Of a stretch of DNA of 64,000 bases, positions 22,050 through 29,122 are shown one piece after another. A program made the translations under genes and the position numbers. Each line of letters begins with the position of its first letter. The stretch's first letter is position 1. This DNA is from Glycomyces arizonensis DSM 44726. GTDB lineage: Bacteria; Actinomycetota; Actinomycetes; Mycobacteriales; Micromonosporaceae. The notes beneath the pieces were generated by a model, which had not been told where the DNA came from, made no database searches, and saw only the letters and a list, made by a program, of their open reading frames with translations. The DNA lies in contig NZ_AXWO01000002.1 in NCBI RefSeq assembly GCF_000482705.1, forward strand, positions 186,001 through 250,000. Direction: 5' to 3'.

Positions 22050-22403
22050 CTACTCGGTCGCTTTGGGATGACCGGTCCCCGCGTAGACGAGCCAGACCGT
22101 CCTGCGCTCGTCATCGACGAGGTACCAGATCCGGCCGCCGCCGGTGACCTCGCACTGCCAGCGCTCGAACACGGCACCCTTCCACTCCGCCTGCCCCAGC
22201 GTCCCCTTGAGCCGGTGCTGCCGACCGGGGTGCTTCTTGGAACGCGGGTCCGAGCGCAGATCCTCCCATGCGCGGCGAAGATTCCCCGCCGCCTGCCGCT
22301 CCAACTCCTCCCAGCCCTTGATCGCCGCGGTGTCGGAGAAACGGAGGTCGAACTCGTCGGCGGTCGGCGGCGGCGCGACACGGTCGCCGCGTTTCGGGCT
22401 CAA
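22050..22403 (-). CDS. RelE/HigB-like toxin
   Basis: This protein of 117 residues starts at a TTG. It has the compact beta-rich RelE-like ending (GAVFERWQCEVTGGGRIWYLVDDERRTVWLVYAGTGHPKA) and a basic middle (RSDPRSKKHPGRQHRLKG). Members usually cleave mRNA at the ribosome. The TTG is chosen because GGAGGAG lies 5 nt upstream and the TTGA overlaps the stop of the antitoxin gene. A longer in-frame ATG start would lie over the antitoxin and is unlikely. Codon use is normal for the region. Confidence 0.7.
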   Translation of the reverse strand: MSPKRGDRVAPPPTADEFDLRFSDTAAIKGWEELERQAAGNLRRAWEDLRSDPRSKKHPGRQHRLKGTLGQAEWKGAVFERWQCEVTGGGRIWYLVDDERRTVWLVYAGTGHPKATE

Positions 22404-22873
22404 GTCCGCTCCTCCGGCGCCCGAACGGAGCCGAGGTCGCCTTCCGGCTCGGCGGTCAACCGGGCGTGCAGGTCGGCGTCCGCGTAGATCTCGGCCGAAT
22501 GCCTCCACTGTTCGAGCAAGGTCGCCATCGGCGCGAGATTGCGCAGCGACGCGGCTCCCTGCGCCACCTCGATGAGCTCGGCGAGCATCCGGTCGATGTC
22601 CTCTTCGGGCAGGAACGTCGACCATGGGAGCGCCTCGGGGACGACCTCGCGGATGGCGTCCGTCGCCCCCGACCGTGCCAGTCCGGCCAGCAACCGGGAG
22701 GTGAAGTCGATGACGGTCGCATCGCGCTCGGCCTGATCGGCCCGCGACAGCGTCAAGTCGTCACTGCCCCGGCGGCGAAGCCTGATCGCACCGAGCGTGC
22801 TCAGGCGCTCGGCGGTGGCCGCCGGCTTGTGGAGGAACTCCGAGAACGGCATCTCGGCATACTGCGCGGACAT
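22400..22873 (-). CDS. Antitoxin partner of the RelE-like toxin
   Basis: This 157-residue protein starts with MPFSEFLHKPAATAERLSTLGAIRLRRRGSDDLTLSRADQ, which resembles a Phd/YefM-type DNA-binding half. An acidic and hydrophobic C-terminal half follows and should hold the toxin. It precedes the toxin gene and overlaps it by 4 bp, the usual antitoxin-first order. TAGTGT ends 6 nt before the ATG, and GGAGGT sits directly at the ATG. The family assignment is tentative; the pairing is firm. Confidence 0.6.
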   Translation of the reverse strand: MSAQYAEMPFSEFLHKPAATAERLSTLGAIRLRRRGSDDLTLSRADQAERDATVIDFTSRLLAGLARSGATDAIREVVPEALPWSTFLPEEDIDRMLAELIEVAQGAASLRNLAPMATLLEQWRHSAEIYADADLHARLTAEPEGDLGSVRAPEERT

Positions 22874-22919: not shown

Positions 22920-25046
22920 TCAGGCCGTCAAGCGCAGCACGTTGCCGATGATCCGGTGGCCGTGCGCCCCGGCCGCCGTCAGGATCGACTCCGGGTGGAA
23001 CTGGACGCCGAACCAGCGCTTCCCCGGCGCCTCGATCGACATCACCACCTCGCCGATCGCCGACGTCGGCGCGAAATCGCCCCGCACCTGGTCGGCCGTG
23101 GCGTACAGCGAGTGGTACCGCGCCGCCGTCACCTCATCGGGCAGCCCCGCGAACAGGCCGCCTCCGCCGACCTTCACCCGTCCCGGCTTCCCGTGGCTCG
23201 GCTCCGGCAGCAGCGACAGCTCGCCCCCCGCGTGCTCGACCATCGCCTGGAGCCCCAGGCACACCCCGAACGCCGCCAGGCCCCGCCGCTCGACCTCGTC
23301 GAGCAGCCCGGCCGTCCCGAAATCGCCCGGCCGCCCCGGCCCCGGCGACAGCACCACCAGGTCGGGCGCGAGCTCGTCGAGCACCTCGCCGACGTCGAAC
23401 CCGAACCGCAGCGTCGTCACCTCGCAGCCGTGCTGCCGGAAGTAGTCCCCGAGCGTGTTCACGAACGAGTCCTCGTGGTCCACCAGCAGCACCTTCCGGC
23501 CGACCCCCGCCGGACCGCCCGCCACCTCGATCGGCTCCGGGACCGGCGCCGCCGCCCCCAGACCGCCCTCGGCCGTCTCCAGCAGCGCCCGCGCCTTCAG
23601 ATGCGTCTCGGCCTCCTCCGCGTCCGGGTCGGAGTCGTACAGCAGCGTCGCCCCCGCCCGCACGCACGCCACCCCGTCGCGGATCTGCGCCGTGCGCAGC
23701 GTCAGCCCCGTGTTCATCGAACCGTCGAACCCGACGAACCCGACCGCCCCCCCGTACCAGCGCCGCGGCGTCGTCTCCTGCTCCTCGATGAACCGCATCG
23801 CCCACGTCTTGGGCGCCCCGGTCACCGTCACCGACCACATGTGCGTCAAGAACGCGTCCAGGGCGTCCATGTCCTCGCGCAGCCGCCCCTCCACGTGGTC
23901 CACCGTGTGGATCAGCCGCGAGTACATCTCGATCTGCCGCCGCCCCAGCACCTTCACCGAACCCGGCACGCACACCCGCGCCTTGTCGTTCCGGTCCACG
24001 TCGGTGCACATCGTCAGCTCCGACTCCTCCTTCGGCGAGCCGATCAACTCCGCGATCTGCGACGCGTCGTGCAGCGGATCGTCCCCGCGCGCGACCGTCC
24101 CCGAGATCGGGCACGTCTCCACCCGGTCCCCCCGCACCCGCACGAACATCTCCGGCGACGCCCCCACCAGGTACTCGCCCTCGCCGAGATTGAAGATGAA
24201 CTCGTACGGCGCCGGATTCGCCGCCCGCAGCCGCTCGTAGAACGCCGTCGGCGAATCGCACGCCGCGTACATCTCGTGGCCCGGCACCACCTCGAACAGG
24301 TTCCCCGCCTTGAACTCCCGCTTCGCGCGCCGCACCGTGTCCGCGTACACGCCCGGCACCGGCCCCGCGGGGACCTCCCCGGCCGCCACATACGCGCGCT
24401 TCTCGGTCTCCCTGCCCAGCTCGTCGGTGGACCTGCCCCCGAAGTCGAACTCGTACCGGTACACCTGCGCGGTCTCGCGCTTCCGGTCGACGACGTACAC
24501 CTCGTCGGCCAGATGCAACACCAGGTCCCGCTGGTCGGCCGGGCGGTCCTTCGCCGGCTCGACCGGCTCGAACTGGTAGGCCAGGTCGTAGCCGAACGCG
24601 CCCCACAGCCCGAGGTACGGGTCGTCGCAGGCCAGCGCCCGCAGTAGCACCCGCAGCGCGGTGAACGCCGTCGGCTGCTTCGACCGCCGCTCCTCCGGCA
24701 CCCGCCCGACGGGCTCGGGTACCCGGACGCGCACGGCGTCGCCCCCGCCGGACACGTCCCCGATCTCGGCCTCGCGCAGCGCCCGCCCCAGCGCCTCCAC
24801 CAGCACCGAGCCGCGCTCGTTCAGCGAGCGCACCTCCACGTCGCGCCCGCGCGCGACGACCTCGACCGGCGGGTCGACATAGGCCAGGTGGAACCGCGAA
24901 TACCGGCCCGGGTACTCCATGCCCGAGGACAGGACCCCGCCGCGGCGGGTCTCGACCCGCTCCACGACCTCGGTCAGGTCCCCGTCGGCCAGATCCTCCA
25001 CGGACCGCCGGATCGCCACCCCGCAAGGGGTCTCAAAGGTGTTCAT
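22920..25046 (-). CDS. trpEG: Anthranilate synthase, fused components I and II (TrpEG)
   Basis: This 708-residue enzyme makes anthranilate from chorismate and glutamine, the first step of tryptophan synthesis. The TrpE part (about 1-500) carries VLSSGMEYPGRYSRF, AFGYDLAYQFEP, CPISGTVARG, ELTMCTDVDRNDKARVC and SVTVTGAPK. The amidotransferase part (about 515-708) has LLVDHEDSFVNTLGDYFRQ, LSPGPGRPGDF, the nucleophile Cys in GVCLGLQAM (about 593) and QFHPESI. This fusion also occurs in Streptomyces and rhizobia. PhzE has a similar layout, but the upstream trp leader peptide supports a tryptophan role. No other trp genes are in the window. Confidence 0.92.
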   Translation of the reverse strand: MNTFETPCGVAIRRSVEDLADGDLTEVVERVETRRGGVLSSGMEYPGRYSRFHLAYVDPPVEVVARGRDVEVRSLNERGSVLVEALGRALREAEIGDVSGGGDAVRVRVPEPVGRVPEERRSKQPTAFTALRVLLRALACDDPYLGLWGAFGYDLAYQFEPVEPAKDRPADQRDLVLHLADEVYVVDRKRETAQVYRYEFDFGGRSTDELGRETEKRAYVAAGEVPAGPVPGVYADTVRRAKREFKAGNLFEVVPGHEMYAACDSPTAFYERLRAANPAPYEFIFNLGEGEYLVGASPEMFVRVRGDRVETCPISGTVARGDDPLHDASQIAELIGSPKEESELTMCTDVDRNDKARVCVPGSVKVLGRRQIEMYSRLIHTVDHVEGRLREDMDALDAFLTHMWSVTVTGAPKTWAMRFIEEQETTPRRWYGGAVGFVGFDGSMNTGLTLRTAQIRDGVACVRAGATLLYDSDPDAEEAETHLKARALLETAEGGLGAAAPVPEPIEVAGGPAGVGRKVLLVDHEDSFVNTLGDYFRQHGCEVTTLRFGFDVGEVLDELAPDLVVLSPGPGRPGDFGTAGLLDEVERRGLAAFGVCLGLQAMVEHAGGELSLLPEPSHGKPGRVKVGGGGLFAGLPDEVTAARYHSLYATADQVRGDFAPTSAIGEVVMSIEAPGKRWFGVQFHPESILTAAGAHGHRIIGNVLRLTA

Positions 25047-25096
25047 TCGGCCTCGATCTCATTCGGGCCCCGCGGCGGCCGACCCCGGATACGACG

Positions 25097-25123
25097 AAGC
25101 GACCGCCATCGAGGCGGTCGCTT
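25097..25123 (-). terminator. trp attenuator terminator hairpin
   Basis: AAGCGACCGCC and GGCGGTCGCTT form a perfect 11-bp stem with a 5-nt loop in the trpEG leader RNA. Its left arm CCGCCTC can instead pair with GAGGCGG at 25156-25150, just after the leader-peptide Trp codons, forming an antiterminator. No T-tract follows, as is common in high-GC genomes. Confidence 0.8.
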
Positions 25124-25154
25124 GCTTACTGCACGCAGGAGCACCGACGCCGCC

Positions 25155-25193
25155 TCAGCGACGCCACCACCAGCTACGCACGTGAATATTCAC
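25155..25193 (-). CDS. trpL: trp operon leader peptide
   Basis: This 12-codon reading frame, GTG to TGA, encodes MNIHVRSWWWRR with three consecutive Trp codons. Stalling there when Trp-tRNA is scarce would leave GAGGCGG, directly after the stop codon, free to pair with CCGCCTC and prevent the attenuator hairpin. TAAGAT ends 7 nt before the GTG, so the mRNA probably starts at the start codon (leaderless). Streptomyces trp leader peptides also carry three Trp codons in a row. Confidence 0.85.
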   Translation of the reverse strand: MNIHVRSWWWRR

Positions 25194-25200
25194 GTGGCCG

Positions 25201-25206
25201 ATCTTA
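25201..25206 (-). promoter_or_regulatory. trp promoter -10 element
   Basis: TAAGAT on the minus strand lies 7 nt upstream of the trpL GTG. I see no good -35 at 16-19 bp. The ileS leader starts in the opposite direction about 65 bp away. Confidence 0.55.
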
Positions 25207-25270
25207 CATGCCCCCAGGGCGGGGCGAAAACCGGTGGGAGCCTCCTTTCGAGCGGCGTTACACTTGGACG

Positions 25271-25513
25271 CAAAGCACCGACCCGGCCATCACCGGCGAG
25301 CTTCCGGAAGAACAGGCCCACCACGGCGGAGCACGCGAAGCCGTACATTGGCGGAGCCCCACTAGACCCGGACGGACGCGGCCCGTCACCGCCGCCGAAT
25401 CGAGCGGGCGCGCCCCTGCGGCGCGCCAAGCGAGGTGGTACCGCGGACCACTGCCCTCACCGGGCACGGCGTTCGTCCTCGCACACCGCATAACCATCAG
25501 GTGTGACGAGGAG
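25271..25513 (+). promoter_or_regulatory. T-box riboswitch controlling ileS (translational type)
   Basis: The conserved T-box TGGTACCGCGG is at 25436-25446, where uncharged tRNA-Ile would pair by its acceptor end. CGAGG (25431-25435) pairs with CCTCG (25477-25481) in the antisequestrator. The same CCTCG plus CACACC pairs with GGTGTGACGAGG (25500-25511), an 11-bp helix with one bulged A that covers the GAGGAG tract before ileS. This switch of partners indicates control of translation, as described for actinobacterial ileS T-boxes. A candidate Ile specifier ATC is at 25289-25291. TACACT at 25259-25264 may be the -10. Confidence 0.85.
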
Positions 25514-25530
25514 ACGGAGACACCGAGCCC

Positions 25531-28500
25531 ATGGCCTATCCACTCGACGACCCCCGACGGGGCGTGCCGGCGAGCCCGAACCTGCCCGAGGTCGAACGCC
25601 GCGTCCTCGACTTCTGGGCCAAAGACGACACCTTCAACGCCTCCATCGAGCGCCGCGAGGCCGGCGACAAAGGAGCGGGCGAGTTCGTCTTCTACGACGG
25701 CCCGCCGTTCGCCAACGGCCTGCCCCACTACGGGCACCTCCTCACCGGCTACGTCAAGGACATCGTGCCGCGCTACCAGACCATGCGCGGGCGCCGCGTC
25801 GAACGCCGCTTCGGCTGGGACACCCACGGCATGCCCGTCGAGGTCACCACCGAGCGCGAGCTCGGCCTCAAGTCCAAGGCCGACATCGAGGAGTACGGCG
25901 TCGACCGCTTCAACGCCGCCGCGCGCGCCTCGGTGCTCCAGTTCACCGGCGAGTGGGAGGACTACGTCACCCGCCAGGCCCGCTGGGTCGACTTCGGCAA
26001 CGACTACAAGACCCTCGACCTCCCCTACATGGAGAGCGTCATGTGGGCCTTCAAGTCCCTGTACGACAAGGGCCTGGTCTACGAGGGCTACCGCGTCCTG
26101 TGGTACTGCTGGCGCTGCGAGACGCCGCTGGCCGCCACCGAGACCAAGATGGACGACACCTACAAGGACCGGCAGGACCCGGCCGTCACCGTCGGCATCG
26201 ACGTCGCAGACGACGGCCCGCTGGGCGGCGTCAAGCTCCTGGTGTGGACCACCACGCCCTGGACGCTGCCCTCGAACCTCGCCGCCGCCGTCCACCCCGA
26301 GGTGGACTACGTCGTGGTCGAGGCCGAAGGCGCCCGCTACCTCCTCGCCGAGGCGCGCCTCGCCGCCTACGCCCGCGAACTCGGCGACGAGCCGCAGGTC
26401 CTCAGCCGCCACAAGGGCGCCGACCTCGTCGGCCTGCGCTACCACCCGCCGTTCGACTTCTTCACCGGCCGCGAAGGCGCCCACCGCGTCCTCGCCGCCG
26501 ACTACGTCACCACCGAGGACGGCACCGGCGTCGTCCACATCGCCCCCGCCTTCGGCGAGGAGGACAAGCTCGTCACCGACGCCGCCGGGATCGAACCGGT
26601 CGTGCCCGTCGACGAATCCGGCCGTTTCACCGAGGAGGTCCCGCCCTACGCCGGCATGCACGTCTTCGACGCCAACAAGGCGATCATCAAGGACCTCAAG
26701 GCCACCGAGCGCCTGCTGCGCCACGACACCTACAACCACAACTACCCGCACTGCTGGCGCTGCGGCTCGCCGCTGATCCAGCGCGCCCTCTCGGCGTGGT
26801 TCGTGGCCGTCACGCAGTTCCGCGACCGCATGGTCGAGCTCAACCAGGAGATCGACTGGACCCCCTCGCACATCAAGGACGGCCAGTTCGGCAAGTGGCT
26901 CGCCAATGCCCGCGACTGGAACATCAGCCGCAACCGCTTCTGGGGCGCGCCGATCCCGGTGTGGGTCTCCGACGACCCCGCCCATCCGCGCGTCGACGTC
27001 TACGGGTCCCTCGCCGAACTCGAACGCGACTTCGGAGTCGAGGTCACCGACCTGCACCGGCCCGCGATCGACGAGCTGACCCGGCCGAACCCGGACGACC
27101 CGACCGGGAAGTCGACCATGCGCCGCGTCCCCGAGGTCCTCGACTGCTGGTTCGAGTCCGGCTCCATGCCGTTCGCGCAGGTCCACTACCCGTTCGAGAA
27201 CGCCGACTGGTTCGAGGACCACTACCCGGGCGACTTCATCGTCGAGTACACCGCCCAGACCCGCGGCTGGTTCTACCTGCTGCACGTCCTGGCGACCGCC
27301 CTGTTCGACCGGCCCGCGTTCCGCACCGCCCTGGTCCACGGGACGCTGCTCGGCGCCGACGGCCAGAAGATGTCCAAGTCGCTGCGGAACTACCCGGACG
27401 TGCGCGAGTCGTTCGAGGAGTACGGCTCCGACGCGATGCGCTGGTTCCTCGTGGCCTCGCCGGTGCTGCGCGGCGGCGACATGCCCGTCACCGAGTCCGG
27501 CTTCCGCGACGCGGTGCGCCAGGTCGTCCTGCCGCTGTGGAACGTGTGGTACTTCTACACGCTCTACGCCGGCGCCGCCGGCTACGAGGCCACGCCCGAC
27601 CAGGCCCGCGCCGCCGCGCTCGCCAGCGAGCACCGGCTCGACAAGTACCTGCTCGCGAAGACCCGCGAGCTCGTCGAGACCGCCACCGAGGCCATGGACG
27701 CCTACGACCTCGCCGGTGCGACGGCCGCGTTCCGCGCCTACCTGGAGTCGCTCACGAACTGGTACGTGCGCCGCTCCCGCGACCGCTTCTGGGAGGGCGA
27801 CACCGACGGCTTCGCCACCCTCGCCACGGCCCTCAAGACCGCGTGCGAGGTGGCCGCGCCGCTGCTGCCGCTCATCACCGAGGACATCTGGCGCGGCCTG
27901 ACCGGCGGGCGCTCGGTGCACCTGGTCGACTGGCCCTCGGCCGACGACCTGCCCTCCGACCGCGCCCTTGTCGAGGGCATGGACGCGGTGCGCGAGATCG
28001 CCTCGGTCGGTCTGTTCATGCGCAAGGCCCGCAAACTGCGCGTGCGCCTGCCGCTGGCCAAGGTCACCGTCGCCACCGGCCACGCCGAACGCCTCGAACC
28101 GTTCGCGGGGCTGCTGCGGGACGAGCTGAACGTCAAGGCCGTCGAGTTCGACTCGGACGTCGACGCCTACTGCAAGGCGGACCTCAAGCTCGTGCCCAGG
28201 GTCCTCGGGCCCCGGCTCGGCAAGGACGTGCAGCGGGTCATCAAGGCCGTCAAGACCGGCGACTGGACCGCCGAGGACGGCGTCGTCACCGCCGGAGGCG
28301 TGGTCCTGGAGGACGGCGAGTACGAGCTGACCCTGGTGGCGGTCGACGCCGAGCACACCGAGGCGCTGCCGAACGACACCGGCGTCCTGGTGCTCGACAC
28401 CGAGGTCACCCCGGAGCTGGCCGCCGAAGGCCTGGCCCGCGACGTGGTCCGCGTCGTCCAGCAGGCCCGCAAGGACGCCGACCTGGACGTCAGCGACCGC

Positions 28501-28677
28501 GTCGCGGTCACCGTCGACGCCGACGCCGACGTGCGCGCCGCCGTGGAGACCCACGCCGACTTCGTGAAGGGCGAGACGCTCGCCCTGGAGCTGTCCTTCG
28601 CGGACCTCCCGCCCGAGGCCACCACCGGCGACGCCGGAGACGGCCGAACGGTCAAGGCCGCCGTCCGCAAACGGTAG
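25531..28677 (+). CDS. ileS: Isoleucyl-tRNA synthetase
   Basis: This class I synthetase of 1048 residues charges tRNA-Ile. The HIGH motif is in [16 protein letters not shown] (about residues 54-70), [10 protein letters not shown] follows, the editing domain is in the middle, and KMSKS is in [13 protein letters not shown] (about 610). Sequence style ([24 protein letters not shown]) is that of the type 2, eukaryote-like IleS, a group generally less sensitive to mupirocin. It is controlled by the T-box upstream. GGAG at 25516-25519 is 11 nt before the ATG. A perfect terminator follows. Confidence 0.97.
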
Positions 28678-28735: not shown

Positions 28736-29122
28736 CTATTCGAGCGGAGCGGTCCAACCCGCGAGCACCTTGGCGATCTCGGGGACCTCGTGGTCGCCTT
28801 GAGCCACGGCACGTATGAAGTCATCGCCTTCTTCGGGCGAGGGGACCTTGAGGTGGAGCCCGTTCATGCCGAACATCAGCTTGGTCCCCAGATACGCGAG
28901 ACGCTTGTTGCCGTCCACCATCGCGTGGTTCCGCGCGAGCGAATGCAGCAGTGCGGCGGCCTTCTCGTGCAGTTCCGTGTACGCCTCCACACCGAACGCT
29001 GCGGCCCGGGGCCGGGCGAGAGCCGACTCGAGCAGACCCCAGTCGCGCACTGGGGGCCGTTCGGTTCCGGTGACCACTTTGGCGATCTTGATCAGGTCAT
29101 CGAGATCGAGGTAGTAGATCAC
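28736..29122 (-). CDS. doc: Doc toxin (death-on-curing, Fic fold)
   Basis: This 128-residue protein has the Fic/Doc motif HAMVDGNKR (66-74), where the Doc-type sequence makes the enzyme a kinase that phosphorylates and inactivates EF-Tu. The N-terminus IYYLDLDDLIKIA and length are typical. The GTG start overlaps the antitoxin stop (GTGA). It is the second gene of a toxin-antitoxin pair. Confidence 0.9.
   Translation of the reverse strand: MIYYLDLDDLIKIAKVVTGTERPPVRDWGLLESALARPRAAAFGVEAYTELHEKAAALLHSLARNHAMVDGNKRLAYLGTKLMFGMNGLHLKVPSPEEGDDFIRAVAQGDHEVPEIAKVLAGWTAPLE

Follow-up and report, generated by a model that had tools for sequence, protein, structure and literature searches.

What controls the fused trpEG gene of Glycomyces arizonensis DSM 44726, and is the gene one of tryptophan synthesis? 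The question arose from a first-pass annotation of 64,000 nucleotides of this genome (contig NZ_AXWO01000002.1, positions 186,001 to 250,000; hereafter the window), which placed a complete trp attenuator with a leaderless leader mRNA ahead of the gene and assigned the gene to tryptophan rather than phenazine synthesis. Our analysis points to a classical ribosome-mediated transcription attenuator on a leaderless mRNA as the control of trpEG, a reading to which we give a probability of about 0.93.

trpEG and its genomic neighbourhood

The TrpEG protein passes the anthranilate synthase equivalog models TIGR01815 (905.8 bits, cutoff 739) and NF010081 (1022 bits, cutoff 645), both scores being well above cutoff, and no phenazine family appears among the 25 listed of its 42 family matches, so that an identity as the phenazine enzyme PhzE is not supported. 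The genome, estimated to be 100% complete, holds only one other chorismate-binding enzyme, for which PabB models are the best matches, below their cutoffs. Because this sole other enzyme is PabB-like, trpEG stands as the genome's one evident anthranilate synthase gene, and the assignment to tryptophan is supported. Other contigs carry two members of the glycosyltransferase-3 family, to which trpD belongs, and these may be either trpD or thymidine phosphorylase genes. Among named sequences, the TrpEG of G. tenuis is the nearest (94% identical), and strong matches occur in 15 further genomes that carry the same genus label.

The next ORF lies 46 nt downstream of trpEG and has an inverted repeat and a TAGTGT box, which, judged by eye, could be its own promoter; since the downstream ORF has this possible promoter, trpEG may be monocistronic. 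Streptomyces lividans trpE is reported to be monocistronic (PMC8079986). Directly downstream of trpEG, two overlapping ORFs of 157 and 191 aa occupy 22050-22873 (minus strand), with the inverted repeat CTTCCAC..GTGGAGG ahead of them. The 157-aa ORF has a weak DUF6247 match below cutoff and the 191-aa ORF no Pfam match; by eye, they may be a toxin-antitoxin-like pair under a promoter of its own.

On the other side of the leader, ileS (25531-28677, plus strand; TIGR00392) is preceded by a T-box-like element, GCGAGGTGGTACCGCGG, at 25430-25446 (plus strand). The string AGGTGGTACCGCG has one exact occurrence, and a second, which lies inside trpEG at 24886, has one mismatch. A search of 25040-25560 matched no T-box family of Rfam even with E relaxed to 5. 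The element is probably a translational ileS T-box of the kind described for Actinobacteria in PMC1262725. If so, a trpEG attenuator and an ileS T-box, both amino-acid-sensing RNA leaders, would stand divergently in one intergenic region. Directly downstream of ileS, on the opposite strand, 28736-29122 (minus) encodes a Fic/DOC family protein (PF02661, 51.9 bits; TIGR01550, 40.9 bits, cutoff 38.65), a candidate Doc-type toxin.

Anatomy of the leader

Read directly on the minus strand, a TAAGAT box is followed after 7 nt by a GTG at 25193, which opens a 12-codon ORF for the peptide MNIHVRSWWWRR that ends in a TGA at 25157-25155 (Table 1). The sequence GAGGCGG (25156-25150), which begins inside this stop codon, is the first member of a GAGGCGG / CCGCC / GGCGG triad; the triad and a terminator-like hairpin stand before trpEG, which starts at 25046. 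The hairpin, AAGCGACCGCC-TCGAT-GGCGGTCGCTT (25123-25097), has an 11-bp stem and is separated from GAGGCGG by a 26-nt spacer, and the competing antiterminator is possible as 10 bp with one bulged A. The three-Trp peptide with its TGA running into GAGGCGG, the distance from TAAGAT to GTG and the terminator stem had all been described in the first-pass annotation with the right coordinates and pairings. Beyond the segments 2, 3 and 4 that it had described, we recognised a 1:2 hairpin built from the Arg codons.

Table 1. Features of the trpEG leader in the window (positions of the window; segments numbered in the order of transcription).
Feature	Position	Strand	Basis or remark
-10 box TAAGAT	25201..25206	-	read directly; 7 nt 5' of the leader start codon
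Leader ORF MNIHVRSWWWRR, GTG start, TGA stop, presumed leaderless	25155..25193	-	read directly, and relatives
Three consecutive Trp codons (regulatory codons)	25164..25172	-	read directly
Segment 1, GTCGC within two Arg codons, able to pair with 25149-25153	25158..25162	-	
Segment 2, GAGGCGG plus CGT, starting inside the stop codon; partner segment 1 or 3	25147..25156	-	
Spacer motif TGCGTG, candidate RNA polymerase pause site	25132..25137	-	
Segment 3, 5' arm of the terminator	25113..25123	-	
Partner of segment 2: 3' part of segment 3 plus two loop bases	25111-25121	-	
Segment 4, 3' arm of the terminator	25097..25107	-	
Fused trpEG, anthranilate synthase, 708 aa, regulated gene	22920..25046	-	
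Perfect palindrome CACGTGAATATTCACGTG over the start codon, probably incidental	25179..25196	-	not conserved

The 24-nt core occurs once in the window at up to 3 mismatches and in 0 of 100 shuffles, and the leader RNA (25200-25085) folds better than 200 of 200 shuffles (z -3.5); the observation is confirmed as real and beyond chance. None of 4227 Rfam families matched the window at its gathering score, the best match below threshold on 25040-25560 being the Caulobacter sRNA CC2171 (16.5 bits against a gathering score of 75, E 0.29). A promoter scanner found no sigma-70 promoter of the E. coli type in 25000-25600, and a -35 region is not recognisable.

Conservation among relatives

We compared the regions upstream of the gene in the 80 best of 443 relatives and in the 28 of 150 family genomes whose match was strong, the source genome of the window among them, a total of 108 regions that reduced to 94 non-redundant ones. 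A strict rule, which called for tandem Trp codons in a leader ORF and for TAnnnT at a distance of 4-9 nt before it, returned 89 leaders, whose sequences are related and in some cases near-identical, such that the counts given here are not independent trials. Model R1, built from 47 of the 89, added two more (L031 and L053, with TAnnnT 10 nt upstream), which brings the leader to 91 of 94 regions; it is absent from L115, L116 and L117, whose TrpEG is 51-55% identical. Judged by the genera named among the relatives, the leaders come from several families, which we take to be Glycomycetaceae, Thermomonosporaceae, Streptosporangiaceae and Nocardiopsidaceae.

The distance from TAnnnT to the start codon is 7 nt in 46 leaders, 6 nt in 38, 8 nt in two and 9 nt in three. 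A box at 6-7 nt thus precedes 84 of 89 leaders, in comparison to 130 of 22,889 ATG or GTG triplets (0.6%) in the same loci. A Shine-Dalgarno-like tetramer at -15 to -4 was found in a single leader. Start codons are ATG (62) or GTG (27), the Trp run is WWW in 62 leaders and only WW in 27, most ORFs have 12 codons, and the peptide ends in WWRR plus at most one residue in 87 of 89, the two exceptions ending in WWWRC. The strict triad GGCGG-CCGYC-GGCGG is present in 79 of 89, and conservation is far lower in the rest of the alignment, outside the named elements (mean column identity 53%).

Between segments 2 and 3, the spacer carries TTCG in 55 of 89 leaders, in strings that include TTCGTGCATG and TTCGCAT, and TGCGTGC, the Glycomyces form, in 21, at a similar distance from the stop codon. 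Part of the element in the window's spacer is able to form an inner stem of the antiterminator. The motif resembles the RNA polymerase pause sites of enterobacterial attenuators and is a candidate for such a site.

Codon choice and covariation in the four segments

Segment 1 consists of the last two sense codons (CGT CGC in the window, CGC CGC in most leaders) and faces a GCGGC just past the stop codon; all 5 bp of the 1:2 helix are possible in 87 of 89 leaders. The first codon of the pair is CGC in 65 and CGT in 24, and the second is CGC in 87 and TGC in two. CGG never occurs in these two positions, in comparison to 39% of the Arg codons in the same trpEG genes. In the two WWWRC leaders (L022, 1342-1448; L039, 1245-1350), TGC replaces the Arg codon and the 1:2 pair is kept as G-U. 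Because CGG is avoided and TGC preserves the pair by wobble, the conserved Arg-Arg is best read as conservation of the RNA and not of the peptide. Among the 47 sequences aligned, 99.1% of the cells of the 1:2 helix are paired, with no two-sided changes and no covariation; the predicted helix rests on codon choice rather than on covariation.

The terminator stem (3:4), examined in 47 of the 89 leaders, does covary: 32 cells changed on both sides against 8.2 in shuffles, and none of 500 shuffles scored as high. The antiterminator core is nearly invariant and covaries weakly (8 to 86 of 500 shuffles as high, depending on the measure).

The hallmarks of attenuation seen here are a trp gene preceded by a short ORF that contains tandem Trp codons, a terminator and an antiterminator that exclude each other because they share one segment, and a 1:2 protector over the end of the ORF; of an intrinsic terminator with a U-tract, the stem is there and the U-tract is absent, with 3 U in the 10 nt past the window's stem. 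The attenuator described at first pass as complete is therefore upheld in its geometry, its conservation and the covariation of its terminator, but not in its terminator tail. Since poor U-tracts are usual among the 89 leaders (at most 4 U of 10 in 69, 6-8 U of 10 in 13), we treat the U-poor hairpin as a variant terminator and not as a disproof of attenuation.

The computed switch

In the model, the ribosome covers 12 nt beyond the first base of the triplet in its A-site, and the RNA was folded before segment 4 exists. With the first Trp codon in the A-site, at least 5 nt of segment 3 paired with segment 2 in 89 of 89 leaders (mean 8.2 nt), compared with 645 of 1780 controls (36%, mean 3.7 nt) in which the sequence from the footprint to segment 3 had been shuffled. 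With the stop codon in the A-site, 2:3 pairing of at least 5 nt was left in 2 of 89, and the probability of the terminator exceeded 0.9 in 83 of 89. The folding that had been proposed as a check thus gave, by computation, the antiterminator for a ribosome at the Trp codons and the terminator for one at the stop. In the window, the exact 10-bp antiterminator has a probability of 0.92 at Trp codons 1 and 2 and of 0.02 at the third; there, 8 nt remain paired in a different register.

In the absence of a ribosome, the early fold of the window is mostly 2:3 (0.85), which outcompetes 1:2 before segment 4 is made, and segment 3 pairs with segment 2 by the 5-nt measure in 20 of 89 leaders. Because 2:3 is favoured under this setting, the 1:2 protector is predicted to be weak, both in the window and in the smaller part of its relatives. 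As soon as segment 4 has been made, the terminator prevails at each of the footprints modelled; because it is the more stable structure in all these cases, the modelled switch must be kinetic, with the choice made during transcription.

In the mechanism that we infer, transcription would start at or beside the GTG and the ribosome would initiate on this 5'-terminal start codon. When charged tRNA-Trp is scarce, the ribosome would stall on the Trp codons and cover segment 1, leaving segment 2 to pair with segment 3, and RNA polymerase would read into trpEG. When tryptophan is plentiful, a ribosome at the stop codon would cover segment 2, and segments 3 and 4 would form the terminator, at which transcription would end.

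Alternative readings

The leader mRNA is very likely leaderless, as the first-pass annotation had held; the TAnnnT spacing, the near-absence of Shine-Dalgarno sequences and the precedent of S. lividans trpL1, reported as leaderless in PMC8079986, all argue for it. Transcription could instead start further upstream, the GTG being ordinarily initiated or untranslated and the hairpins a plain terminator, and the -35 region is indeed unrecognisable. The nearly fixed box-to-start distance, the one Shine-Dalgarno-like tetramer in 89 leaders and the S. lividans report make such an arrangement very improbable. Much the same holds for a DNA-binding repressor acting additionally at the leader start on the 18-bp palindrome CACGTGAATATTCACGTG, which is perfect (9 of 9 pairs) and spans the presumed start site. 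The only other exact CACGTG-N6-CACGTG match in the genome has a different centre, and the 20 closest relatives compared keep no more than 3-6 of the 9 pairs; on these two grounds, the lack of a second copy with the same centre and the decay of the palindrome among those relatives, we dropped it as an operator, and we regard the added repressor as highly unlikely.

A further reading keeps the same leader and hairpins and makes termination dependent on Rho or NusG. It is considered because the hairpin has no U-tract, and the U-poor tails of 69 of 89 leaders favour it, as does the terminator scanner, which gave the window's hairpin no score. Yet the 3:4 stem shows covariation and persists in different families, and in 13 of 89 leaders the 10 nt that follow the equivalent stem do contain 6-8 U. 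Termination aided by Rho or NusG is therefore a possible but less likely variant of the scheme, and the classical attenuator with a U-poor terminator is our preferred reading.

Comparison with known attenuators

The trpL leader of E. coli works with Trp codons and the same 1:2 / 2:3 / 3:4 logic as that proposed here; it differs from the presumably leaderless Glycomyces leader in its 5' UTR, which provides a ribosome-binding site for trpL itself. For the trpE attenuator of S. venezuelae, the source cited is reportedly Lin, Paradkar and Vining (1998). Lopatovskaya et al. (2010), in a comparative study, and Korolev et al. (2015) are said to have dealt with Trp attenuators in Actinobacteria and may include relatives of the present one. 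We recognised no published account of this element in Glycomyces among the best 8-20 papers listed by each search of the literature, most subscription papers being outside these searches.

According to PMC8079986, S. lividans has two leaders that are leaderless by RNA-seq, trpL1 (MFAHSTRNWWWTAHPAAH followed by the stop codon, upstream of trpE) and trpL2 (upstream of trpS). The Glycomyces leader resembles trpL1-trpE in its very likely leaderless transcript, in its three consecutive Trp codons before anthranilate synthase and in its competing hairpins. By contrast, 7 codons separate Trp from the stop in MFAHSTRNWWWTAHPAAH and only 2 in the Glycomyces WWWRR-stop, where the stop overlaps segment 2, and TrpE proteins with S. 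lividans-like leaders (L159, L163, L166) are about 31-32% identical to the window's TrpEG. Seliverstov et al. predicted Trp attenuators in Streptomyces and Corynebacterium with the conserved complementary triples gGCC-rGCy-GGCC and cite experiments in C. glutamicum and S. venezuelae (PMC1262725). Closer in its gene is Sinorhizobium meliloti, whose trpE(G) is likewise fused and about 51% identical, with a leader alike at the stop codon too. PMC7298713 places the 5' end of its trpLE(G) RNA at the trpL start codon, an ATG, and roles in trans are reported for the rhizobial leader RNA and peptide. The S. meliloti leader differs from that of Glycomyces in the ATG start, WWWAR and a U-rich terminator tail. 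Leaderless three-Trp leaders are thus already reported, for S. lividans trpE and S. meliloti trpE(G), and Glycomyces adds a clear, conserved new case.

Distribution of the leader and the question of common descent

In the source genome, R1 gave one strong match of 86 bits, followed by one of 19.5 bits. Across 296 genomes of the class, 138 matched at E of at most 0.01, many of the weak matches being due to chance. Of 40 weaker matches that were chosen and fetched, 13 look spurious; the other 27 show a leader ORF with Trp, although L192 has one Trp only and L169 was judged by eye. Below the 27 lie TrpE-like genes in 16 cases (by tblastn) and trpS in 8, the remaining three being L167, L177 and L183; a TAnnnT box stands 6-8 nt before the start in 25 of the 27 (L169 again by eye). 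L177 and L183 carry leaderless-looking WW leaders (MTRLQQQWWRRL, MTRTQQQWWCRL). Downstream of both, tblastn gave no match to TrpEG, and the longest frame below L177, which may be the wrong frame, matched no NCBIfam model at 1e-60.

R1 also found the leader in all five Rhizobiaceae records fetched of the seven listed (24.8-27.7 bits), and in an 8-kb stretch with E. coli trpL it gave no match to trpL. A single unit of common descent in Actinomycetes and Rhizobiaceae, made up of the leaderless WWW-x-R-stop attenuator and the fused trpEG together with the pause-site spacer motif, would mean that this unit passed from one phylum to another or was retained from a shared source, and that a normally fast-evolving RNA switch stayed recognisable across phyla. 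We consider such descent rather improbable. The rhizobial likeness may instead be convergence under shared constraints. Against common descent, many leaders in the class that precede trpS or distant TrpE genes outscore the rhizobial ones (about 34-47 bits, others 25-30), although these genes are not close relatives of the window's trpEG. The TrpEG tree, made by a quick method and with several long branches, points the same way: between its actinobacterial and rhizobial clades that bear the leader stand genes with no detected leader, from Legionella (L203), Methylobacterium (L204), Streptomyces plasmids (L202, L208) and the window's family (L115-L117). Inside the two clades, the leader is absent from L200 (Microvirga) and L201 (a Streptomyces plasmid).

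Implications

The 89 leaders, with their near-fixed distance from -10 box to start codon and almost no Shine-Dalgarno-like sequence, form an unusually clean natural set for leaderless attenuation. No Rfam family matches the window's element at its gathering score, and the element could be added as one. The switch itself includes the stop codon and the last two codons before it, a case in which RNA pairing explains the choice of codons and, in two of the leaders, a changed amino acid. For the cell that carries it, the leader very probably provides a means to sense tryptophan shortage.
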